Positions 177 through 33,562 of a stretch of 36,235 nt of DNA are shown in pieces (within the stretch, counting starts at the first letter, position 1; each line of letters opens with the position of its first letter). Source of the DNA: a virus. The notes below the pieces were generated by a model that worked only from the letters and a program-made list of their open reading frames with translations, searched no databases and had not been told where the DNA came from. The position numbers and the translations under genes were made by a program. The stretch spans positions 1-36,235 of IMG/VR virus record IMGVR_UViG_3300038825_000850; one strand, 5' to 3'.

Positions 177-433
177 CAGTATTCTCCTCCGAGCGCCATC
201 TCGCGCTCGCCTTCGATTTCGTAGTCTCGCGTCCAGCCATTAGCCATCATGGCCTTCCATTTAGCGCGTGCCTCACGGCGCAGCAGGATGGCCGTCTCGT
301 GACGACCTTCGTCACGCTCCACTGTAACCGTCACCGTAGGACCGTGAACTTGAAACGTGGCTGACCGGGAATCAGTGGGCCAACCGTTGTTCCAGCCGAG
401 ATAAGTCACGAGGCTGAAGGTTCCGTCGATCAT
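176..433 (-). CDS. Hypothetical 85-aa accessory protein
   Basis: An 85-aa protein of unrecognised family. The start is the ATG at 433 because an AAGGAG ribosome site lies just upstream, in the conserved leader ACCACCACTAAGGAG; a longer frame reaching 700 would read through the promoter and the end of the preceding gene. The N-terminal half looks beta-rich (FSLVTYLGW, then alternating Thr/Val at about 33-40). The C-terminal half is charged and helical (about 48-65, Arg/Lys/Ala rich). It is the first gene after the repeated promoter/operator element and is followed by a one-base-overlap gene, so it is probably expressed independently of the virion genes. Confidence 0.7.
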   Translation of the reverse strand: MIDGTFSLVTYLGWNNGWPTDSRSATFQVHGPTVTVTVERDEGRHETAILLRREARAKWKAMMANGWTRDYEIEGEREMALGGEY

Positions 434-455
434 CTTGTGTCTCCTTAGTGGTGGT

Positions 456-515
456 GTTGATGGTGTCAACCTACTCGTCGCTGTTGCGGGTGTCAACACC
501 CCGAGACAAAAAAAA
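456..515 (-). promoter_or_regulatory. Promoter/operator element, copy A
   Basis: On the minus strand: a T8 tract (508-515) immediately after the TGA of the preceding gene, 11 nt, TTGACA (-35, 491-496), a 17-nt spacer, TAGGTT (-10, 468-473) and the inverted repeat GTTGACACCATCAAC (456-470) overlapping the -10. The leader ACCACCACTAAGGAG then leads into the 85-aa gene. Three other copies occur in the window. A sigma70-type promoter is the natural reading; repressor binding at the inverted repeat is inferred from its position. Confidence 0.75.
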
Positions 516-1178
516 TCAGCGAGCCATCTCCCAAGCGATCGCGCCAGCCAGCGCGGCCCACAGATACCGACGCCACGCGACAGGTTGCTCGTACTTCTCT
601 GGCTCCGACACGACGACCTCTCCGATGTCGAGAGATGCTCTCGGGTGCGTCGATCTCGCGAGCACGACGGTCCTGCCGTCGCCCGTCTCGGACACGACAA
701 GCTCGCCCGGTATCGTGACCCCGTAGGTCAGCGTGTGACGAGCGGGCGGAAGGTCGAACCGCCACGTCGCCGTGAGAAGCCCGTCGTCAATCTCGCCCTC
801 CCAACGCTCGACCGTATCCGCGAGAGCCGTGAGAGAGTCCGTGAGCACCGTCGCTCGTTGCGCTAGTGACTCGACCTCCCCCTGTGCTCTCGCTGAGAGA
901 TCTGTCAGCATTGCGATCTGGATGCCAGCGTCATCAAGACGAGCCACCAGAGCCGCACTCGTGCTGTCCCTCTCGCTGATCGCTTGCGCCAGATCACGCC
1001 GAGTAGATGCAACCGTCGCGCTCCATGCGCTGTCTCGCCGGATCGCGTCGATGGCCGCGTCGGCGGCTATGCTGTCGGCCCGCGTGTCAGCCCGAGCCAA
1101 GCGTTCGCGAGTCGCGACGAGTTGCCACTGCGTCACCATCACGACGACCAAGAGGACAACCGCCGCGATTCGTTCCAC
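516..1178 (-). CDS. Spanin-like membrane/coiled-coil protein
   Basis: A 220-aa protein starting at a GTG directly abutting the TAG of the upstream gene (TAGGTG). Residues about 4-20 form a hydrophobic N-terminal membrane anchor (RIAAVVLLVVVMV). Residues about 25-150 are a long Ala/Arg/Asp-rich helical region with coiled-coil character. Then comes a short beta-like segment, and a second hydrophobic stretch lies near the C-terminus (YLWAALAGAIAWEMA). N-anchored coiled coils of this size are typical of phage i-spanins (Rz-like), but the second C-terminal hydrophobic segment is unusual for Rz and no overlapping o-spanin lipoprotein is seen. It could instead be a tail-associated or superinfection-related membrane protein. 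It is the last gene of the virion/lysis run before promoter copy A. Confidence 0.6.
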   Translation of the reverse strand: MERIAAVVLLVVVMVTQWQLVATRERLARADTRADSIAADAAIDAIRRDSAWSATVASTRRDLAQAISERDSTSAALVARLDDAGIQIAMLTDLSARAQGEVESLAQRATVLTDSLTALADTVERWEGEIDDGLLTATWRFDLPPARHTLTYGVTIPGELVVSETGDGRTVVLARSTHPRASLDIGEVVVSEPEKYEQPVAWRRYLWAALAGAIAWEMAR

Positions 1179-4831: not shown

Positions 4832-6473
4832 CACTAATCAGTAGGACGGTAGTCGAAAAACCCGAGACGGTGATCGTGCCCGTGATGTCAGAAGTTTTGT
4901 AGAATGGCCCCGCCCCAGATGACAACCGTGCCTTCCCTACGACCGGCTGATCTGACACATAGTTGAAGCCTGTGTTTTCGATGACCCCGCTGGCGTTGGT
5001 GGTGCCGCTCAAGATGTCCGTTCCTGCGGCGAGCGGTCCACCGCTGTCGGCCTCAAGCAACACCCTTGCGCCAGAGATCGCTGTCTTGGTGTCGGCGTCC
5101 AACACTGTGACGGATACCGTGACGGTGTTGTTGATGACGACGGTCGCGCCAGCCGTGCGGACAGTCGGAGTATCGCCGCCGTCTGTGATGTTAATTGTGC
5201 AGGTGCCGCTCGTTGCCGACACATAGATCGCCGCATCGTTCGCACCGTCTGAGCCGTACCCGAAAAACCTAATATCCGACAGGGTGTAGGTTGTCGCGGT
5301 ATCAAGTTCAATGGCGTGACCGGAACCCGATTGCGCGAAAGCCGTACCGTACAGACCAGTTCCGAGAGTGGCGTTGCCGAACGTCGGATCTTGCAGGGTG
5401 GCTACACCGGATGCCGACTGTGTGTTGATGACCGCCAGATCGAACTTTGCACCGTTCTGTGTCAGAAGGGTGCATTTCATCACAGAGGCTGTCGCGTCCA
5501 CACTCGACTGCAACGTGATGTTGCGGAAGTTATCGTACACACCAGCAATAAACGCCAAGCCAGACGAGCCGGTGAATATCATGTCTGGGCGCGTATCCTC
5601 GGTCGTAGAGCTACCGAGCCCGATATGTGTCGAGGCGTCGATGAACAGTGTCGTCGCTTGAGACAGATTGACAAGCAACCCGAGGTCGCCCGCCCCGTGG
5701 TAGCCGTCAGGATAGATCACTGTCGCGAAGTCGTCGCGGAAACTTGCCGATGTCGCCGCAGTGCCGATGTCGAGTCGTCCGTTGCAAGTGATGGGCGAGC
5801 CGGACCCTAACGGCTGGAGCACAACACCCCAGCGATTGTTTATGGTGTCTTGATCTTCGGCAATGAAATCTTCGTATGTGCCGACAGGATCAGCACCACC
5901 CCCGCCCGTCAGTTGGAGGCCAGTGCCAATATCAATCGCGTCGAGGCCAAGGTTTTCCGATTTCGAGTTTCCATTTTGGAAAGCAGCCTCAAAACCAAAG
6001 TAATCTACAGCGGTGAGAGACGGTGTTCCGCTGCCTGTCCCCTCGCGCCATGCCGAGACTTCAGGGTTTAGGCCAAAAATAAGAAAGCCGCCTTGGGAGG
6101 GCCAAGCATTAAACCGCGACCTGTTTGCAGCGGTTCCGGCGACTACATAGTGGTAAAACGCATTGTTAGCCGAACCCAGCGTAATCCGAGCCCCGTTTGC
6201 TACCACAAGATCAGCAAAGTCAGTAACCACGCACTTCACGAACCAAAGCTGACGGTTCGCTGCGGTCATATCTACCGCCCCCGCACCGGGGTCGTATTCG
6301 ATTCCGCCATAGGTCGCAGATTGAATCTGCTTATTGACGATGTTTGTGCCTTGATACCTGTTTTGCGGCTCTTGGGATGGGGCCGGACCTGTCGCGTTCA
6401 GGTTAGACCAATTCGTATTACTGTCGGAAGCGTTGACCCGCGTTCCTTGGAAGGCAACGACCACGACAGCCAT
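4824..6473 (-). CDS. Appendage structural protein with C-terminal Ig-like domain
   Basis: A 549-aa protein rich in Gly, Ser, Thr, Ala and Asn, with alternating short strands typical of phage fibre or tailspike proteins. The N-terminus (MAVVVVAFQGTRVNASDSNT) is short. The middle (about 40-430) looks like beta-solenoid or jelly-roll sequence without catalytic motifs. Residues about 448-549 look like a carboxypeptidase-regulatory/Ig-like domain (VSVTVLDADTKTAISGARV, then a TTNASGVIENTG turn). Such domains decorate virions and may bind carbohydrate weakly. It lies in the run of large appendage genes and ends overlapping the next start. The structural role is confident; the exact location on the virion is not. 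Confidence 0.7.
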   Translation of the reverse strand: MAVVVVAFQGTRVNASDSNTNWSNLNATGPAPSQEPQNRYQGTNIVNKQIQSATYGGIEYDPGAGAVDMTAANRQLWFVKCVVTDFADLVVANGARITLGSANNAFYHYVVAGTAANRSRFNAWPSQGGFLIFGLNPEVSAWREGTGSGTPSLTAVDYFGFEAAFQNGNSKSENLGLDAIDIGTGLQLTGGGGADPVGTYEDFIAEDQDTINNRWGVVLQPLGSGSPITCNGRLDIGTAATSASFRDDFATVIYPDGYHGAGDLGLLVNLSQATTLFIDASTHIGLGSSTTEDTRPDMIFTGSSGLAFIAGVYDNFRNITLQSSVDATASVMKCTLLTQNGAKFDLAVINTQSASGVATLQDPTFGNATLGTGLYGTAFAQSGSGHAIELDTATTYTLSDIRFFGYGSDGANDAAIYVSATSGTCTINITDGGDTPTVRTAGATVVINNTVTVSVTVLDADTKTAISGARVLLEADSGGPLAAGTDILSGTTNASGVIENTGFNYVSDQPVVGKARLSSGAGPFYKTSDITGTITVSGFSTTVLLISDE

Positions 6474-11350: not shown

Positions 11351-14300
11351 TGTGCTAGGAACCAAGAGCCGATGATGCGGGTGTTCGATCCGGCTGTGGT
11401 CTTGAAGAACTGGACGACCGTAATGTCGTTCAGGTCGCCTGCGTTAAGCACAGGCTCAGTGCCGTTAGCCCAGAAGATCGTATCGGTCGAATCCCACGTT
11501 ACGCTTGACGGCGCACTGGTTCCTTCCTGCACCATGAGGATGTAAGACCCTCCGGGCTGCATAGCATCATCGTCAATCGCGATGATCGTGACTGTGTTTG
11601 TGATCGTCAGGTGTAGCTGGTTGCTTCGGTCCCAATCACAAGTCACCGTAGCCGCGACGGTCAGGACGGTCTGATATTCCTCGACGTAGAACTGGGAGTT
11701 TTCGACACCCCACCGACCTAGATCGTTGCCCAAACCGTTGAAGTTCAGTCTGCGGTCAGTAGCGACTACAGCCCCACCGGCATAGAAACTGAAATCGTCC
11801 GTATTGCCTTCAAGCCGGAACCGCATTTGTCCACCGTTGATGTACTGGACTCTGGCCTTGTCAGTGCCGTTTTGCTTGAACCTGACGAGCGGCTGACCCG
11901 TGGCGCTGGTCGTATTGAGCGCCAGAACTGCATCGCTGTTGGAGTTGAAAGTGACAGTATCGGTTCCGTTGTAATCAAAGGTGGCCATGTTGAACGACCT
12001 GCCGAAATCGCGAATGTGAATTGGGGCATCTGCAAGAGCGGTGCCCAAGTACGTCGTGCCATCGTCCTCGCCCTGCCAGTAAGCCTTCGCACCATCTTGG
12101 TTGGCAAGCGTGATGTAGGGTTTTCCGGTCGTGTTCGAGACTCGTAGTGTCAGGATCTCATCAGCGGCTGTTTGCACCTCAAACGCCCCGTTGTTTTCGT
12201 TGACGAGATAGGAGCGACCGTTGTTGTTATAGCTGATATACATCCGGCGATTATTTACTTGATACCACGATAGGTAGGGGTTTCCTGTTGCGCTTGTTTG
12301 CCTCATGCGAATCAGTTCATCTCTTGCTTCCGAAATGAACGCATGACGGTTCATAAAGATGTAATTGTTCGGAGCATCTACATCTATAAAGACATCGTCT
12401 GACCCCGCTGAAAGCCGCAGTGTACCTGTGGCTGCAAGCCGCATCCCGGTGTCTTGGTCGTTGCCAAAGGCATAGGTCGGAGTCAAATTGGTTCCATCAT
12501 AATACGGTCGTACCTGACCGACTGTAGTGAAAACCCACTGCTGTGCCGTCGTGTACGCCAGTTGCTGATTGGGAGCGATGTAGACGTTGCCATCGGAAGC
12601 GAGGTGCAGATTCTCAACAGTCGTGGTCGAAACGATCGACCTGCCCGTCACATAGGCGTCTGTTGTATCACCGGCTAGGATGACCATAGACGAGTCGCAG
12701 CCGATAGAGAAACCACCTTCATCGGTGATCTTCGTCATGCGGGTGTGACCCGTACCACCCCAATCAAGGATGTAGTCGCCTGTAGTGAGCCCGTTGATGT
12801 CGATAGCAGTGGTCGCCCCAGAGGCCATACTGATGTCGAGAACGCGAGTGGATGTCGGGGCAGTCGTGTCGGCCTCGCCGTACCCAAGCCGCATATGGCG
12901 AGCCAGCGTCAGGTAGCCATCTGTGGACAACGCCATCGCACCACCGGACTGGGTGTGATTGTCATGGCCCCACCAGAATCCGCGATTCGCATCGTCGTTC
13001 ATTTGGAACGTCATCGCGTAATTCGTACCAAGTGGTCCGAATGTGAAGCTGTTCTGCATCCCAATGGCGTAGAAACTAGTGCTCCATACCCGAATCTTGT
13101 CGCGGGTGCTTTGGTTTGTGTGGATCAGTACCGACGTACTGCCGCCAGAGAACACAAGGTCGGCGTTCGTGCCAAGCGTTACGTCAGAACTAGCGGCGAG
13201 CGAAACGACGTTGAGCGTGTCGGTCGTGGCGGTGTAAGAGAACTCCGACGCATCCACAAAGTGCGAAACTGCGCCGCTCGTACCGTCCGCCATTATGGGG
13301 TAGTAGGTGTCGGTTTCCGTCGTCAGGTCGGTCACTGTGGAGGAGTCAGCAGAGATGTTCCCCAGCCCTGACCCATCCCCAGTAAAACCGCCCGTGCCAG
13401 CGATGTTTAGGTCCGTCCCGTCCCATGTCAGTTCATTGGAGCCCGGTCCACTCGACCAATCTGCCTCATGGTCTGTGCCGGTAGAGACGAGGAGCTGATC
13501 ACTCGACGCCGCGCCTGTGATGAGCGGGATGTTGCGAACGAGGTCAGTGCCAACAATGGTACGAAGCTCGAACGTGCTCCCGTTGTCGTAAGAGTAGAGT
13601 GTCTGGTAGCCTGCGAGTGCTGCCGTAGGATCGTTGGCCGATGTCTCGTTCTGGAGAGCGAGCCACCCGTTCAAGCGTGGGGCTACGGTGAAGCTGTAGG
13701 TACCCGTGATCGTCTCGTCCACGTTGCTCTCGACGAAGTTACCCGTGTTCATAATGGACAGCGGGATGTCCGAAAACTGGATGCTCTCAACCGCACTCGT
13801 CAGACCGCCGTCACCGATCAATAGAGCGTCGAGTCCGACCGGGATAACGCCCGTGTTCGGCGCGGCCCCGATCAGTCCGTCTGCGCCAGACCCGTAGTTG
13901 ATACGGATGTCGTTAACGACTCGCTGCGCTCCTAGCGAAGCCGTGACGGTCGTGTATCCTAGATCATCGTTGAACGCCGTGAGGTCGATGTCCTCAAACA
14001 AAATCCGACGAGAGTCGCCACCGTCCAGATGAAACGGCAGCGAGTCGAGTCCAGTCGGGCTCGTGGCCGTCAGCGACAGATCAACAATATTGAGGTCGAG
14101 CGTAACGTCGGTCGCCGTGCCACCCACACTGATACCGCCATTCGTAACCGACGTGAGCGTCTCAACGGCATCTCCAGAGGCCAAGAATGGGAGGTCTGAG
14201 ACTTCACCGACTTTCACCCCGCCAGCAGCGTCATCAAAGTCGTGGTAGAGGATGTAGTCAGAGCCTGAAATCGCTGTGCCTACAAGATCCTTTGTCAGAT

Positions 14301-17926: not shown

Positions 17927-18591
17927 ACCACCTCCGCATCGCCTTCGCCACCCGGTTCTCTGCGCGGTGATGTATAGTCGGACCTCTCGGGGTTCGTCGG
18001 ACCCCACCAGATTTCTTTGTTCGCGAGCGACTTGACCCGAAAGAAAAAGAGATCGGTCGGACTAGCGACACCCGAGCGTCGGATCATCTCTTCGTGCGAG
18101 CGGACGTTCGACCTTGTGGACACCTTCGCGTTGATCTGTGCGAGGTCGGCAGTGACCCGAGTCCTGACCGACACCGCGCCCCCGCTCTCTTGGTTACTGT
18201 GGTCCCGCGTCTCCTGCACGCGCCACTCGCCGTTCTGTCGCCCTACGAACAGGAGGTCGGGTGTGTCTTGTGCTCCGGTCGTCTCGTCGAAGTGCAAGAG
18301 ATATATCCGCAACACATGACCGCGAAAGTTGTTCGCTTGGATTGCGTCTGTGATCGTCTGGTCGATACCGTACAGTTCGAGTTCGACGCCTTGTGCCTTC
18401 CTGTCTGTCGTCTCTTCCGGTGCGCCGTGAACAAGCTGCGCCCCGACTGCGGTCCACGTCTGCGATAGCGCGGTGATGTCGCCCGACGAGTTCGTCAGCC
18501 GCAGTACGCCGCCGCCTGAGTAGTTGATCTCATACAAGTAGGTGAACTCACCGCGCTGATCGCCTATCGGACTGTTTAGCGTCCGAGTCAT
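17920..18591 (-). CDS. Minor tail protein, DUF2163-like
   Basis: A 223-aa protein beginning MTRTLNSPIGDQRGEFTYLY. Features include a TYLYEINYSGGGVLRLT strand pair, GVELELYGIDQTITDAI, and VLRIYLLHFDETTGAQDTPD followed by LLFVGRQNGEW, which is the pattern seen in the DUF2163 N-terminal domain of GTA-type tail proteins. The gene overlaps the previous stop by four bases (ATGA) and the next GTG. It probably forms part of the distal tail hub that carries the NlpC/P60 peptidase. Confidence 0.7.
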   Translation of the reverse strand: MTRTLNSPIGDQRGEFTYLYEINYSGGGVLRLTNSSGDITALSQTWTAVGAQLVHGAPEETTDRKAQGVELELYGIDQTITDAIQANNFRGHVLRIYLLHFDETTGAQDTPDLLFVGRQNGEWRVQETRDHSNQESGGAVSVRTRVTADLAQINAKVSTRSNVRSHEEMIRRSGVASPTDLFFFRVKSLANKEIWWGPTNPERSDYTSPRREPGGEGDAEVVW

Positions 18592-24965: not shown

Positions 24966-25378
24966 AGCAGATCCACGTCGGGTAGCAGGGTGCGGTAGTC
25001 GGTGTTAGTGCGCTCGCTACCGGCGCGATGCTTCCACGTGATGCGGGTTTTGCCGTCGATCTCCTTGAGCACCCCGGAAGAGTCGAGCAGCTTGGCGGTC
25101 TGTCCATAGTGCGACGAGTCGAGGCCCATGCCTGTCTCGCCTTGATAGTCGAACCGGACGCCGCCCGCTGCTTCGCTCTTCACGAGCCGGTCGCGCAGAG
25201 ACACGAAATGCGCGGCGAGGTATGTCTCGACCTCTCGCAGCGCATCGGCAGTCTGGTCGGTGCTGGCGAGGTACGCGGTCACCATGAGGTTCGCCGTCTC
25301 TACGAACGGTGCGACCTCATCCTCGGTGAGCGTCGTGTCCATGACACTGCACACTCGCGACGTAGTTGTCCGAGCCAT
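24962..25378 (-). CDS. Head-tail adaptor (gp6-like connector)
   Basis: A 138-aa protein. It has a helical N-terminal half (DTTLTEDEVAPFVETANLMV, then a DALREVETYLAAHFVSLRDR helix) and a beta hairpin/loop FDYQGETGMGLDSSHYGQTA typical of phage head-tail adaptors that form a ring below the portal. The start has an AGGGAGATAGCAG site. It follows a 190-bp gap and begins the neck/tail run. Confidence 0.75.
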   Translation of the reverse strand: MARTTTSRVCSVMDTTLTEDEVAPFVETANLMVTAYLASTDQTADALREVETYLAAHFVSLRDRLVKSEAAGGVRFDYQGETGMGLDSSHYGQTAKLLDSSGVLKEIDGKTRITWKHRAGSERTNTDYRTLLPDVDLL

Positions 25379-28870: not shown

Positions 28871-29287
28871 CTACTGCTCGGGCCTTGTCAACCGTCGCCC
28901 GCACGTCAGGCAGCGATTGTCTCTGACGCGCTGCTTCGCCTCGTTGATGACCTGCTTCATGTGACTGAGCCCGCGTGACCCGACAGCCAGCCACTTGATC
29001 TGCGCGACGACGCCAGCGAGTCGGTGATCCTCGTAGTGACGAGCGACCCACGCCTCGCGCAACCTGACAGCGTTCTCCTCAGATTCGCTCTCGACGCTGC
29101 CTCCCCGGCGAGCGATCGGAGCGAGCTTCCTGAACTGGTCGTTGCCGCGAATGTTGCCGCCTCGTCTCCAGATCGACGGGTAGTCCTCTTTCAGATCCTC
29201 GGCATAGGCCAGCGGGAATAGCTGCCACTGCGAATTGCGGAGGCTGACCTTCTGGTCGTCGCCTTTACGTGGGAAATCTGTCGCCAT
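28871..29287 (-). CDS. Hypothetical 138-aa protein, start of the capsid run
   Basis: A 138-aa basic protein: MATDFPRKGDDQKVSLRNSQ, then YPSIWRRGGNIRGNDQFRKL at about 36-55 and a helical region that includes WVARHYEDHRLAGVVAQIKW. The C-terminal end has CLTCGRR, a CxxC pair that could bind metal. I recall similar proteins next to DUF2213 genes in other phages, but I cannot name a family. It begins the capsid run after the terminator at 29304-29332. Confidence 0.65.
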   Translation of the reverse strand: MATDFPRKGDDQKVSLRNSQWQLFPLAYAEDLKEDYPSIWRRGGNIRGNDQFRKLAPIARRGGSVESESEENAVRLREAWVARHYEDHRLAGVVAQIKWLAVGSRGLSHMKQVINEAKQRVRDNRCLTCGRRLTRPEQ

Positions 29288-29303
29288 GTCTCTAGCCTAA
29301 CGA

Positions 29304-29332
29304 CAAAACCCCCGACCCCGAAAGGCCGAGGG
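29304..29332 (-). terminator. Rho-independent terminator closing the accessory cassette
   Basis: On the minus strand CCCTCGGCC pairs with GGTCGGGGG (9 bp, two wobbles) around a 6-nt loop, followed by TTTT. It lies between the 146-aa cassette gene and the 138-aa capsid-run gene, so it would insulate the accessory transcript from the capsid genes. Confidence 0.7.
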
Positions 29333-29354
29333 ACTTGTTGCCTCGCCCATTCAG

Positions 29355-29795
29355 CTACAGCGTGATCTTCGCTCCGGTAATCAAGTCCACGACAGTCTCG
29401 CCGGGGCCGAACGCTGCTCGCATCTCGAAAAGCTCCTCCTCAGCAGGACCCGTGTATGTAGCACAGTACCTATCCATCGCCTCCTCAAAGTCTTTTTTGC
29501 TAGCGGCCAGTGTCGCGTCGTAGTCAAACTCGAAGCCGAGCGAGTCCCAGAGCGCGAGGATGTCCTTCGGCGGGATACTGCCGTTGGTGTCCCAGCGCAC
29601 GATCCCGTAGACGACCGTCGCGTCCGTGAAGAACTTGGCGGTCAGGCTCACGGCCTCCCTAACGTCGTGCATCCCGGCGGCCTGCGTGCGGGTCGCGTCC
29701 GTGTAGTAGACCTGTCCCCAGCCACGCGCGGCCAGCGCGAGCTTGGCGTCGCGTCCGTACTTCTCCGTGATCTCGGCTCTGGTCATGTGCTTCAT
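29355..29795 (-). CDS. Hypothetical 146-aa accessory protein
   Basis: A 146-aa protein starting MKHMTRAEITEKYGRDAKLA; the ATG at 29795 follows an AAGGAG site, so the longer frame to 29828 (which reads through the operator) is rejected. The body is mixed alpha/beta: GQVYYTDATRTQAAG, ATVVYGIVRWDTNGSIPP, then a helical C-terminal region and an ending VVDLITGAKITL. Unknown family. The gene follows the operator-only copy B and precedes the terminator, so it is the last member of the accessory cassette. Confidence 0.65.
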   Translation of the reverse strand: MKHMTRAEITEKYGRDAKLALAARGWGQVYYTDATRTQAAGMHDVREAVSLTAKFFTDATVVYGIVRWDTNGSIPPKDILALWDSLGFEFDYDATLAASKKDFEEAMDRYCATYTGPAEEELFEMRAAFGPGETVVDLITGAKITL

Positions 29796-29829
29796 TTCGG
29801 TCTCCTTAGTGGTGGTTGATGGTGTCAAC
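29795..29829 (-). promoter_or_regulatory. Operator/leader element, copy B (no -35)
   Basis: The inverted repeat GTTGACACCATCAAC (29815-29829), one base after the TAG of the 67-aa gene, plus the leader ACCACCACTAAGGAG. Upstream is coding sequence with no TTGACA at the right distance, so this copy may be only a translational leader or a site for the same regulator. Confidence 0.65.
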
Positions 29830-30032
29830 TATGAGCAGTCGTAAAGACGCTGCTTGATCGCCTCTCTCGCGCTTCGGTTGCCATGACGCGCTGCGTGATG
29901 GTCGTTCGCCATCTGGCCGAGCGCAGTCACGGGATCGAACTCCTCGCCTGCCTGCTGCTTGCGGTAAATCTCGCGGAGCGCGGCCCTCAGTACGTATTCT
30001 GCTACCGTGTGATCTGTGCTGGTCATCTTCAT
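29829..30032 (-). CDS. Hypothetical 67-aa helical protein
   Basis: A 67-aa protein, MKMTSTDHTVAEYVLRAALR at its start (an ATG two codons later also fits), mostly helical, with HHAARHGNRSAREAIKQRLY near the end. The AAGGAG site six bases before the ATG fixes the start. Unknown family. It is the first gene under promoter copy C and ends at operator copy B. The helical, basic character could suit nucleic-acid or protein binding, but nothing specific can be assigned. Confidence 0.65.
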   Translation of the reverse strand: MKMTSTDHTVAEYVLRAALREIYRKQQAGEEFDPVTALGQMANDHHAARHGNRSAREAIKQRLYDCS

Positions 30033-30055
30033 CGTTCTCTCCTTAGTGGTGGTGT

Positions 30056-30114
30056 GTTGATGGTATCAACTTAAGCATCCTGTTGCGGGTGTCAACAGGC
30101 GAGGCGAAAAAAAA
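30056..30114 (-). promoter_or_regulatory. Promoter/operator element, copy C
   Basis: T8 (30107-30114) directly after the TGA of the transglycosylase gene, 11 nt, TTGACA (30090-30095), 16-nt spacer, TAAGTT (30068-30073) and the inverted repeat GTTGATACCATCAAC (30056-30070). The leader with AAGGAG leads to the 67-aa gene. The T8 distance to the -35 is the same as in copy A. Confidence 0.75.
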
Positions 30115-30639
30115 TCAATCGACCAGAGCGGCCTCTCGGAGCACTTTGTCCGGGTAGGAGCGACACGGCCCCAGTCGGTTGCAGCCGTTGTAGCGCAGGA
30201 GGCTCTGCGTCAGTGTGCGTCCGCGTCGGAAGTCGGCCAGCACCTCGGCACCGCGACAGACCGATCCCTCTATCGTCGTCAGCGGCGTAGCACACTCGGG
30301 CCAAGCGTCGGCGTGCATCGGCATCACTTGGTACAGACCGCGAGCGCCTGCCGAGCTTACGACGAGCGTGTCGAGCCACGGGTCTTCGACCATCATCACG
30401 CCGACCATCAGATCGACCGGCAAGCCGAGGCGAGCACTGTGTCGATGGATCGCGTCAGCGATGCGGTCGATGTCTTCGCTGTCAGCGCAGTGGTCGAACT
30501 CGCAGCGCCAGCGAGCGGACAGAATGTACTCCGCAATCGGGTCGGGCTCCGCGTAGAGTGGGTCGAGCACTATCGGCTCGGGCTCCATTGCGTGACACGC
30601 TGCGCTGCCGATCGTAGCCGCCATGACTAGGACTCTCAT
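30115..30639 (-). CDS. Lytic transglycosylase (SLT), exported
   Basis: A 174-aa protein. The N-terminus (MRVLVMAATIGSAACHAMEP) is a short signal peptide ending in a weak lipobox, GSAAC, so it may be a lipoprotein. The SLT domain includes the likely catalytic Glu85 (VMMVED), VSSAGARGLYQVMPMHADAW at about 94-113, and a terminal LLRYNGC motif at about 147-153. SLT enzymes cleave the glycan strand of peptidoglycan with formation of 1,6-anhydroMurNAc. It is not next to the lysis cluster or tail genes but in the accessory cassette, so it may act in entry, release or host-wall modification. It overlaps the preceding stop by four bases. Confidence 0.8.
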   Translation of the reverse strand: MRVLVMAATIGSAACHAMEPEPIVLDPLYAEPDPIAEYILSARWRCEFDHCADSEDIDRIADAIHRHSARLGLPVDLMVGVMMVEDPWLDTLVVSSAGARGLYQVMPMHADAWPECATPLTTIEGSVCRGAEVLADFRRGRTLTQSLLRYNGCNRLGPCRSYPDKVLREAALVD

Positions 30640-31142
30640 CCGCTGTCTCCAGTTCGGTACTCGCCCGCGTCTACACCCTCACTGCACTCCGCACAGAGTG
30701 GATCGGCGTCTGTACGGAACGCCGGGCGTTCGCCGCACTCCGTACAACCCTGCGATCCGGTTCCGTCGCACTCCTCGCACTCGCGGGTTCTGATGATCGG
30801 AGAAATGCCGCCGAGCCCTGCTCGGCTCTCGCCAATGATGCGGTCGTGCTCGCCGTGCCCGCCGCACTCGCCGCACTCGACGTGCTCCCTCGGCTCGTTA
30901 TCCACGGCGATCCCTAGCTCTGGCTCACCCGCCCCGTCGATCAGCGCGAGGATGCGGTCGGTGTCGATAGGCGTGTGGACCTGAAGAGCCTTGATCGTTT
31001 CGTCCACGCCAACCTCGCCAGAACCCGCGAGTGCGAGGTCGTGCAGAACCGCTGCACAGGCGTTACCCCATGCGATCACGACAGCCGACTCGACCACCTC
31101 GTCTATCACCTCCGCGATCTGCTCCCGCAGTGTGTCACTCAT
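30636..31142 (-). CDS. Four-CxxC zinc-binding protein (DnaJ-like zinc finger)
   Basis: A 168-aa protein starting at the ATG at 31142, which overlaps the upstream gene; the frame upstream of it is not supported by a ribosome site. The N-terminal half (about 1-80) is helical. The C-terminal half contains four CxxC pairs: C90/C93 (CGECGGHG), C122/C125 (CEECDGTG), C133/C136 (CTECG) and C150/C153 (CAEC). The first three with CxxCxGxG spacing match the DnaJ central zinc finger, which binds two Zn and acts in protein folding or disulfide handling; no J domain is present. Similar stand-alone fingers occur in phage genomes with unknown roles. It is coupled to the transglycosylase gene. Confidence 0.75.
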   Translation of the reverse strand: MSDTLREQIAEVIDEVVESAVVIAWGNACAAVLHDLALAGSGEVGVDETIKALQVHTPIDTDRILALIDGAGEPELGIAVDNEPREHVECGECGGHGEHDRIIGESRAGLGGISPIIRTRECEECDGTGSQGCTECGERPAFRTDADPLCAECSEGVDAGEYRTGDSG

Positions 31143-31476
31143 CGCCCTCCCCCTCTTCTCCTGACCAACAGGTACATTCGGACCACTGCCATCGACAGTG
31201 CGGTCGGTGCCCGGTGTCAGTCCTCCCGACAGGACCATGCACGAGGTCCCCGGCGGGCGGGCCTTTGCGGCGATCCCTAGCTCTGGCGAGCGCGGGGGCG
31301 ATGTCGGCGTGTGTGAAGTCCTCGACCGACTCCAGTTCCGTCGCCTCGTCGAGTGCTGCGCTGGCGATTGCGTACAGGTCGGCGTCTCCGGTCCCTGTGG
31401 CGATCCGCTGGACGCGCACCATCGCGTCTCTCAGAATCGTCGCGCTCGCCACATATTGAAGTCTGTCAGTCATCAT
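31135..31476 (-). CDS. Hypothetical 113-aa protein, helical N-half and Cys-rich tail
   Basis: A 113-aa protein starting at ATG 31476 (or the ATG one codon on), overlapping the stop of the 43-aa gene. Residues 1-70 are predicted helical (LQYVASATILRDAMVRVQRI). Residues 85-113 are disordered and hold CRWQWSECTCWSGEEGEGDE, with three Cys that may bind metal. Unknown family. It sits between the pentapeptide-repeat protein and the zinc protein. Confidence 0.65.
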   Translation of the reverse strand: MMTDRLQYVASATILRDAMVRVQRIATGTGDADLYAIASAALDEATELESVEDFTHADIAPALARARDRRKGPPAGDLVHGPVGRTDTGHRPHCRWQWSECTCWSGEEGEGDE

Positions 31477-31604
31477 CCTAGCTCCAATCCTTCGAGGATC
31501 GTGAGCGTCAGATCCGCACCCCTGAAATTCGCATACCTGAGATCCGCACCCTCTACGACCTCAATGACGTTCCCGTCGCAGTCTTTGATTTCAATCGTGC
31601 TCAT
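31473..31604 (-). CDS. Pentapeptide-repeat miniprotein, 43 aa
   Basis: A 43-aa protein, MSTIEIKDCDGNVIEVVEGA at its start. Residues about 17-34 follow the pentapeptide-repeat pattern A(D/N)LXX: VVEGADLRYANFRGADLT. This gives only three or four repeats, about one coil, much shorter than MfpA/Qnr proteins that mimic DNA and bind gyrase. It starts one base after the previous stop and overlaps the next start. It may be a remnant or a small capping protein. Confidence 0.6.
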   Translation of the reverse strand: MSTIEIKDCDGNVIEVVEGADLRYANFRGADLTLTILEGLELG

Positions 31605-31605
31605 C

Positions 31606-31917
31606 TCAGTCACCTGCCTCTGCCTCATGCGTCACCTCCCTCGGCCTCTGCTCGTCGAGTGATGCCTTGATCGCCTTTACCCAATCGGGCACGAAGGTTT
31701 CACCGAAGGTGGTCAGGGTGAAACGGCCATAGCCAGACCCGTGCCAACTGTCGTGGGTCATTTCAACGAGTTCGTACTTCAAGAGCGACCGCAGAACCCG
31801 GTCGGTAAGGCTCTGTGTCCCGATCACCCACCCCGCCTGTTCGTGCCACTCTCCACGGGCGTGGGTAAACAGCCCCGCCAGCGCCGTCCGTTGATTGTCA
31901 CCTAGTCGGATGCTCAT
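31606..31917 (-). CDS. Winged-helix-like accessory protein, 103 aa
   Basis: A 103-aa protein. Residues about 10-60 (a helix, then TQSLTDRVLRSLLKYELVEM followed by a GYGRFTLTTFGETFV wing) fit a winged-helix arrangement, so DNA binding is possible. It overlaps the upstream gene (ATGA). It is the second gene after promoter copy D and is therefore a reasonable candidate for the regulator that binds the repeated operators, though nothing in the sequence proves this. Confidence 0.55.
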   Translation of the reverse strand: MSIRLGDNQRTALAGLFTHARGEWHEQAGWVIGTQSLTDRVLRSLLKYELVEMTHDSWHGSGYGRFTLTTFGETFVPDWVKAIKASLDEQRPREVTHEAEAGD

Positions 31918-32231
31918 GCGTCACCTCCCTCGGCCACTTCCTTGCGGCGCTCTGCCATGCGACGCTCTGCAATGACCCACTGCGGCTCGATCGTGAACGA
32001 GTATCGACCGGGCATGATCTGCGTATGGCCGACGACCAACTCTTTAGTCACTGCGCGCTTGCCGGTTCGCACGTAGAAGTGCCCAGCGTCGTCGGAGTAC
32101 ACGCGCAGGCTGCGCGCCTTGCCGTCGTCTATCACCGAGATTGTCGAGCTAGCGAACTCACGCTCCTCTAGGAACCGGGTCACGGGGCGGTGGTGCTGCG
32201 CGAGGCGGGTGTATGTCGTGTCGGTGCTCAT
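31914..32231 (-). CDS. Hypothetical 105-aa accessory protein
   Basis: A 105-aa protein starting at the ATG at 32231 after the conserved leader. It has a helical N-terminus (TRLAQHHRPVTRFLEEREFA), a beta-rich middle (ISVIDDGKARSLRVYSDDAG, HFYVRTGKRAVTKELVV) and a charged C-terminal helix (WVIAERRMAERRKEV). Unknown family. First gene of the accessory cassette. Confidence 0.65.
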   Translation of the reverse strand: MSTDTTYTRLAQHHRPVTRFLEEREFASSTISVIDDGKARSLRVYSDDAGHFYVRTGKRAVTKELVVGHTQIMPGRYSFTIEPQWVIAERRMAERRKEVAEGGDA

Positions 32232-32252
32232 CTCTCTCTCCTTAGTGGTGGT

Positions 32253-32292
32253 GTTGATGGTATCAACTTAATCACTCTGTTGCGGATGTCAA
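32253..32292 (-). promoter_or_regulatory. Promoter/operator element, copy D
   Basis: TTGACA (32287-32292), 16-nt spacer, TAAGTT (32265-32270) and inverted repeat GTTGATACCATCAAC (32253-32267), followed by the ACCACCACTAAGGAG leader of the 105-aa gene. It lies just after the stop of the metallophosphoesterase gene. There is no T8 upstream in this copy, but GGGGTG precedes the -35 as in copy A. Confidence 0.75.
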
Positions 32293-32302
32293 CACCCCAA
32301 TT

Positions 32303-33562
32303 TCAACCGATGAGACGCTGGCCTCTGAAGTGGCACTCGCCGTCGATGATCTGCACGTGTTCCATGCCCCACCTGCTCTTGTCCTTCGACCACGTGACGA
32401 CCGCGAGTGATTGCTGCCACGCTGCGTGATCCACGTAGTCCTCGCGGATGCGGCCCATGAGGCCGAGGCACGTCCAGCGGAGTTGACCGTTCCAGTCGCG
32501 ATGATGGTGGCTTGCCATCTTGTGCGTGTGTCCGCTGATGCCCGACTTGCCGTACTTCTTGAACTCGGCCTGTGCCGGATGCGCCCCGGTCGATGCGCCG
32601 TGCTTGCAGACGATCCGGTCGAACAAGAGACAGAAGTTGCGCCGGTCGTGAGTCGCTTGGTACGGGTACTGCTGCCAGCCGAGCGAGTCGAGCCCGAGCA
32701 AGCTGCCCCACTGGAGCGCGTCACGGACGGTCGGGAGTGTCAGTAACTCACCGGCTGCACGCCGGTCAGCTATGTCCCAAATCGTGCGCCTCAGTCGGTC
32801 CTCATGGTTGCCCTCTAGCCAGACGTGCTGACAGTCCGGTCGGGTTAGTGAGGAGATCAGCCCGAAGTGCTCGACGCCCATGCGGATCTCGTCGGCAAGC
32901 GTGACCCTGTTGTGCGGATCTTTCGCCCAGCGACCAAGCTGCTCGGCGTCGAGCGTGTCACCGTGATCTACGACGACGGTCGGGTCGGTGATCTCTAGGA
33001 TCTGGTGCAGGATCGACAGGCATCGCTCGTCGTGGTGCGGGTAATGAACGTCTCCGAAGTGGACCGACACATCTGCGGTCGGCTTGCGCTGTCTGGCGAT
33101 CTTGGGCCGCACGATCTTCACGACGGCTGGCGCGAGGTCGAAGAGGTCGGAGGCTTTCTTGCGGAACCGGACCCGCACGTATCTCGTCTCGACAACGATC
33201 GGCTGGTCATCGACCTTCATGGGAACGTAATGCGAGCGAGCTTCGCCGTCGCGAACGTCCCATACGGTGCGGTCGATCTTCGCCGCCGCGATCAGATCAT
33301 CGACTGTTTTGATCTTGCATGAGGCGGCGACCTGTATCTCTAGGTTGTCAACGTCTTGTACGACGGTGATCTCCTCAGAAACTTCGGAGGCAGGCGCGTC
33401 TAGGTTAGACGCTAGATGCGTCCGACGCTTGGCAAGTGAGCCGAGCGATCTCTCACCGGGGAACCGTTCGCGGAATTGCGCCCAGATTTGCGCGTTGCTG
33501 AGTCCTTGCTCTACGCGGTGCCGGATGAACTGGTCCTGCTCTTCTGTCCACGCTGACGGCAT
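32303..33562 (-). CDS. HTH-metallophosphoesterase
   Basis: A 419-aa protein. Residues about 3-47 look like a SANT/Myb-type helix-turn-helix (WTEEQDQFIRHRVEQGLSNA). A middle domain at about 85-160 (KIKTVDDLIAAAKIDRTVWD) precedes a calcineurin-like phosphoesterase domain with D171-x-H173, GD 201-202, GNHE 251-254, H321 and GHTH 344-347, the complete metal-ligand set. The order matches phage phosphoesterases related to nucleases of the Mre11/SbcD group, though only single-domain similarity is visible. Position among head genes is unusual for a replication enzyme; DNA-end processing during packaging is one possibility. A 7-bp stem lies upstream of the start. Confidence 0.85.
   Translation of the reverse strand: MPSAWTEEQDQFIRHRVEQGLSNAQIWAQFRERFPGERSLGSLAKRRTHLASNLDAPASEVSEEITVVQDVDNLEIQVAASCKIKTVDDLIAAAKIDRTVWDVRDGEARSHYVPMKVDDQPIVVETRYVRVRFRKKASDLFDLAPAVVKIVRPKIARQRKPTADVSVHFGDVHYPHHDERCLSILHQILEITDPTVVVDHGDTLDAEQLGRWAKDPHNRVTLADEIRMGVEHFGLISSLTRPDCQHVWLEGNHEDRLRRTIWDIADRRAAGELLTLPTVRDALQWGSLLGLDSLGWQQYPYQATHDRRNFCLLFDRIVCKHGASTGAHPAQAEFKKYGKSGISGHTHKMASHHHRDWNGQLRWTCLGLMGRIREDYVDHAAWQQSLAVVTWSKDKSRWGMEHVQIIDGECHFRGQRLIG

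Follow-up and report, generated by a model that had tools for sequence, protein, structure and literature searches.

The block of eight small genes at positions 29355-32231 of IMG/VR virus record IMGVR_UViG_3300038825_000850, which was analysed over its whole 36,235 nt (hereafter the window), is probably a moron-type cargo slot in the head gene cluster, kept by recombination between repeated regulatory modules and probably transcribed early, as judged from comparative sequence data. The genes lie between a metallophosphoesterase (MPE) gene and the head genes, and the block, head and tail genes of the window are all on the minus strand. All eight open reading frames (ORFs) of the initial annotation were recovered at the sizes given there (105, 103, 43, 113, 168, 174, 67 and 146 aa); coordinates are collected in Table 1. 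Comparison with relatives resolved the block into two pockets with replaceable genes, one on each side of a constant part made up of SLT174 and the module behind it.

Relatives were gathered by protein searches with the phosphoesterase, the capsid and MuF. Three close genomes, namely G001 (52 kb, contig 3300025889_000166), its twin G002 and G003 (15 kb), and three distant genomes (L015, L016 and L024) were compared; a fragment, L006, has a G001-like arrangement. Both ends of G001 fall within a single gene, so this genome was taken as near complete. In the window, PHROG profiles recognized portal, MuF, head protease, decoration protein, capsid and tape measure, and the nearest isolates by capsid were Brevundimonas phages at 35 % identity. 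No match was found among 50,697 phage records, either for the 26-36 kb part of the window by DNA search or for SLT174 and g105 by tblastn. The capsid search across bacterial and archaeal genomes likewise returned no relative, and hence no prophage and no host were found for the phage.

Identity between the window and G001 was 91 % up to 32237, the last base of the ribosome-binding site (RBS) of module 1, after which there was no homology through pocket 1. The two sequences matched again from 30674, which is 35 bp ahead of SLT174, with 93.5 % identity over 30049-30674. This second stretch ended at 30049, within module 2 (in its RBS leader). Pocket 2 had no homology; similarity then returned with the initial base of the terminator stem (29332) and covered the head genes and the region past them at 92-96 %. 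Towards the left end of the window, homology with G001 stopped at 440, the last RBS base of a fourth module, and gene content diverges there. SLT174 and the module behind it were constant in the close genomes covering them, with only the flanking pockets varying, and the MPE upstream was 90 % identical in G001 and G003. Pocket genes differed between the window, G001/G002 and G003. No pocket gene of the window had a BLAST homologue in the G001 or G003 pockets. Apart from SLT174, one pocket gene (70/72 aa) is common to G001 and G003. At the 3' border of pocket 1, the last ~11 codons of g168 are common to an unrelated G001 gene at the same place. By eye, the 85-aa gene near the left end seemed to resemble one of the G003 pocket genes, but BLAST at 1e-3 did not confirm this and the similarity was not used.

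Among the distant genomes, the slot was found both empty and refilled. In L015 and L016, MuF is followed by a small orf77-like gene, ~125 nt and the protease, without the phosphoesterase, the block or the downstream flanking gene g138. The order in L024 is the orf77-like gene, a 111-aa gene, a 147-aa HD-phosphohydrolase-like gene (PHROG 990, 1e-22), g138, and 85-aa and 76-aa genes. Near-consensus promoters (TTGACA-N17-TAATAT) belonging to another repeated module accompany the four extra L024 genes, most of these units having one of their own, and strong hairpin-T8 terminators lie behind two of them; between units, terminator is followed by promoter. A block fixed in all relatives was therefore ruled out, and the comparison of gene content at this site, as proposed beforehand in the initial annotation, gave variable content with intact flanks and borders on module and terminator. 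The moron interpretation of the initial annotation was supported in part: the content varies, but the block is not one self-contained unit, because SLT174 and module 2 are constant between the pockets.

A second site also exists in filled and empty forms: G003 carries a module and a 145-aa ORF at 4853-5371, whereas the flanks are joined at 25328 in G001, already with a terminator behind them. Beside this second cargo slot, a tRNA/tmRNA-like sequence (GGGCGCGGATAGGATTCGACG...GGTTCGACTCTGGGCGCGTCCA) was observed at L052 5158-5240, which was recognized by neither ARAGORN nor Rfam. The homologue of g105 in G001 (Table 1) is at 17959, behind another module and between genes for a DnaB-like helicase and a RecE-like exonuclease. 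Consecutive pocket genes in G001 and G003 are joined by a ~28-bp linker, GCCGAGGGAGGCAACTGAGATGAGCACC or variants, which spans the last codons of one protein (..AEGGN), an RBS and the first codons of the following one (MST). Seven linker copies were found in G001 and G003 together, all within pockets (0 in 60 shuffles), and one weaker copy in the window.

The module at these borders is about 57-65 bp long and consists of a dyad (opA) with TTGACA, 16-17 nt, a TANRTT box, an overlapping second dyad (opB), and a conserved leader and RBS, CACCACTWAGGAGA, directly before the start codon. In modules 1 and 2, opB is the 15-bp dyad GTTGATACCATCAAC and opA a second dyad copy, GTTGACAYCCGCAAC. At up to three mismatches the dyad had 11 matches in the window against 1.2 expected, a number reached in none of 100 shuffles, and the composite module pattern had no match in 300 shuffles. 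There are 10-11 full module copies known across the genomes compared, each complete copy heading a gene. A search of IMG/VR with the composite pattern gave matches confined to this phage group, barring two (L057 and L058) that were rejected as chance matches within coding sequence. Of the three operators reported in the initial annotation, all have dyads where claimed, but the third is truncated and lacks TTGACA, and the fourth module, a full copy, had been overlooked.

The same module heads operons in the replication region of G001 (at 12219, 17900 and 20947), and because of this the cargo is probably transcribed early. The module is probably a genome-wide regulatory element, through which the block would share early control; private control of the block, with a promoter of its own as in the initial annotation, is less likely. 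At L051 17688-17891, a 67-aa protein consists of a sigma-70 region 4 domain alone (Pfam 9e-9), and its gene ends 8 bp before the TTGACA of a module; it is a candidate regulator of the modules. The small DNA-binding proteins encoded by G001 include a 67-aa one resembling sigma region 4 and a 224-aa HTH protein.

The closing terminator of the initial annotation was confirmed as a hairpin and T run that is conserved in a relative, and it stays with the flank while the cargo changes. A simple terminator scan of the window found four terminators against 4.9 expected, indicating no overall excess. Before two of the four window modules (the SLT174 site and the left module), a T8 tract lies on the stop codon of the preceding gene, with weak hairpins. 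On its coding strand, the window has no other run of at least eight T, and G001 likewise has such runs at these two sites alone, against 0.02 expected per shuffled G001.

The constant gene SLT174 (94 % identical in G001 and 87 % in G003) resembles an exported lytic transglycosylase of small size. It has an N-terminal signal, and Cys15 (lipobox-like), Glu85 and the SLT motif GLYQVMP are kept in the three sequences compared. Its SLT-domain matches were sub-threshold or weak (Pfam SLT 0.0013; PHROG 342 3.4e-5). A sequence search against the PDB gave no match, and structure prediction was poor (pLDDT 52), leaving the fold search with the model uninformative. For g168, a zf-AtTam37 match (0.0014) was below cut-off, and CxxCxGxG motifs were present. 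These two are the wall-acting and zinc proteins of the initial annotation, both putative assignments.

In the mechanism proposed for the slot, the module, as promoter, operator and RBS, would open it and the terminator would close it, with interchangeable small genes occupying the two pockets around SLT174. Short homologies supplied by modules, linkers and terminators would allow recombination to swap genes without losing promoter, RBS or terminator, and the phage RecE-like exonuclease, which is encoded in G001, may provide the recombination function. Phage annealing recombinases act on diverged sequences (PMC3945230). A dimeric regulator would bind the module at its two dyads, the cargo would be transcribed early, and the terminator would insulate the head genes downstream. 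It is conceivable, as a tentative extension, that these elements form an integrase-free architecture dedicated to exchange, in which modules at the 5' side, linkers internally and terminators at the 3' side serve as homology for an annealing recombinase. If so, single genes or short runs would swap between sites and phages under one early regulator, and one gene pool would serve the slots of both the head operon and the replication region.

Several observations weigh against a cargo slot maintained in this way. A sigma-70 consensus scan misses the module, in which the -35 is perfect and the -10 (TAAGTT, 16-nt spacer) is weak; the module was called a promoter on the basis of conservation across the 10-11 full copies rather than the scan. 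No dyad-binding regulator for the modules was identified. The module at G001 20947 heads a gene conserved in G003 (G003 1587), indicating that modules are not solely sites of cargo exchange, and SLT174 is not variable despite its position inside the block. Pocket GC content (0.628 / 0.602) does not differ from that of the flanks (0.618 / 0.621). Independent alleles are few, amounting to three close and three distant genomes, every one a metagenomic contig. The GC values, together with searches of G001, G003 and the window that found no integrase, resolvase or HTH_3 protein (three families, with G001 almost complete), lend no support to lysogeny or foreign composition. PADLOC gave a single weak match at chance level only, and Rfam and ARAGORN returned nothing relevant.

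Ordinary mosaicism, with illegitimate recombination occurring anywhere, selection for intact promoters, genes and terminators, and no recombination role for the modules, is considered unlikely. Gene-edge borders are predicted by selection alone, the 3' border of pocket 1 has no module and falls inside a coding sequence, 35 bp from SLT174, and some modules head conserved genes, all as this explanation would have it; it fits less well that homology ends on the same module base at 32237 and at 440, which are separate sites, and that a third border (30049) lies inside a module. The shared 28-bp linker at internal junctions and the occurrence of the g105 family behind different modules make homology-driven exchange the simpler account. 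The operator-like dyads and -35-like TTGACA, which would be needless in a purely translational signal, likewise count against the module being a shared regulatory or translation-start signal only, comparable to the Cluster K SAS and serving co-ordinated expression, with the variable content incidental. Content changes exactly behind the module at all cargo sites compared, and this explanation is considered distinctly improbable, even though the module is always just upstream of a start codon, has a strong RBS and also occurs at conserved genes (G001 20947 / G003 1587).

Short repeats are the usual places of misjoins in metagenomes, and chimeric contigs joined at the repeated modules could in principle produce such borders. 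An assembly artefact of this kind is nevertheless very improbable, since the module copies differ and share just ~20 consecutive identical bases, the G001 arrangement was found again in two other contigs (G002 and L006), the alleles differ by 4-10 % in the flanks on either side of the pockets, and the L024 units carry a different module entirely. The reading as a cargo slot kept by recombination between modules was preferred.

Morons are defined in lambdoid and other temperate phages (PMC4378225) as extra genes inserted between two neighbours of related genomes, each with a promoter and a terminator of its own. The block shares the insertion, here in the late structural region, and the terminator, and it has a promoter-like sequence. 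Insertion is indicated by its absence from L015 and L016, its replacement in G001 and G003 and the filled and empty second site, although MPE and g138 are missing from the empty relatives as well. The terminator is present at 29309-29332, and the promoter-like sequence is a conserved TTGACA-N16/17-TANRTT with a weak -10 that the consensus scan missed. The single-gene units of L024 and the 145-aa unit of G003 come closest to the definition. In contrast, the window block is multigenic, encloses a constant gene, has a control module common to replication-region operons and shows no sign of a prophage state. Because its GC equals that of the flanks, a divergent base composition being usual for morons and not obligatory, it is described as moron-like and was not filed as a moron.

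In logic, the module resembles the promoter early stem-loop (PeSL) elements of T4-like phages (Arbiol 2010 / Comeau 2014), which, as outlined in PMC4503421, are short repeated regulatory cassettes at gene borders in ORFan-rich variable regions, with a proposed role in recombinational gene shuffling. Location in gene-shuffling regions is common to both, and the L024 terminator-promoter composites between units are a further likeness. The differences, on the same outline, are the paired dyads, the long RBS leader and the ORF-to-ORF linker in relatives, and a stem-loop part that in the window amounts at most to a T8 tract and weak hairpins. The phage group is also unrelated and not T4-like, given the PHROG portal, MuF, capsid and tape measure, the 35 % Brevundimonas capsid identity and the 52-kb relative. 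In position, the likeness is to the Cluster K SAS/ESAS (PMC3203893), a conserved repeat right at translation starts that precedes different genes in different genomes and in about half of SAS has an upstream inverted repeat. There, however, the sequence is the 13-bp GGGATAGGAGCCC, unrelated to the start sequence CACCACTWAGGAGA here, ESAS have 17-bp inverted repeats, and SAS are limited to the non-structural half, whereas two modules here lie within the head cluster. By sequence and phage group the module is therefore placed outside SAS/ESAS and, as far as the outline of PeSL extends, outside PeSL. The 17-bp palindromes of Cluster O (PMC4351075) are likewise a genome-wide dyad with some insertions or deletions between copies, but they are mostly away from promoters and starts and many are intragenic, whereas every complete module copy heads a gene.

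Table 1. Positions of the modules, genes and other features in the window
Feature	Position	Strand	Size	Details
Metallophosphoesterase (MPE)	32303..33562	-	419 aa	Upstream flank; Pfam PF00149 2e-5; PHROG metallo-phosphoesterase 8e-22
Module 1	32237..32293	-		opA 32279-32293; -10-like TAAGTT 32265-32270; opB 32253-32267; RBS CACCACTAAGGAGA 32237-32250
g105	31914..32231	-	105 aa	Pocket 1 cargo; 79 % identical homologue in G001 replication region
g103	31606..31917	-	103 aa	Pocket 1 cargo; PHROG 14896, unknown function
Pentapeptide-repeat protein	31473..31604	-	43 aa	Pocket 1 cargo; Pfam PF00805 7e-6 on 51-aa form
g113	31135..31476	-	113 aa	Pocket 1 cargo; no family match
g168	30636..31142	-	168 aa	Pocket 1 cargo; C-terminal CxxC zinc-finger-like region
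Shared junction	30640..30674	-	35 bp	Before SLT174; 3' border of pocket 1
SLT174	30115..30639	-	174 aa	Constant core gene
T8 tract	30107..30114	-		Right at SLT174 stop codon
Module 2	30038..30096	-		opA 30082-30096; -10-like 30068-30073; opB 30056-30070; RBS 30038-30051
g67	29829..30032	-	67 aa	Pocket 2 cargo; no family match
Truncated module 3	29801..29829	-		Dyad GTTGACACCATCAAC 29815-29829 (third operator) and RBS; TTGACA not in place; overlaps g67 stop
g146	29355..29795	-	146 aa	Pocket 2 cargo; no family match
Intrinsic terminator	29309..29332	-		10 bp stem and T run
g138	28871..29287	-		Downstream flank; 99 % identity in G001, 79 % in L024; absent from L015 and L016
Fourth module	440..497	-		Full copy; behind 220-aa gene 516-1178, before 85-aa gene 176-433

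Other observations concern the flanks and the relatives. In the window (28871-29310), g138 starts 6 nt past a TAGGCT box right behind the terminator, without an RBS, and may be leaderless. A 69 % identical phosphoesterase at L009 1263-2537 adjoins the end of a tail gene and not head genes, suggesting that the phosphoesterase itself also moves. The MuF of G003 (L008 7646-9538) has a ~320-aa C-terminal extension with a HELNH metalloprotease-like motif, absent from the window and G001, and an ORF of about 70-80 aa lies behind it; this precise insertion at the MuF end has the look of a polymorphic C-terminal domain accompanied by a partner gene. Relative to G001 20038, G003 has a ~390-bp insertion at 282-670 (reverse contig orientation) between flanks that are 84-92 % identical; the small gene it carries is membrane-protein-like and resembles one of L009.

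The entry of morons into phage genomes and their exit from them is still termed mysterious (PMC4378225). Filled, empty and refilled slots in close relatives, with base-exact borders at a regulatory module, make a recombination mechanism testable in this phage group. The pockets also hint at a pool of uncharacterized small phage genes with a possible action on the host.

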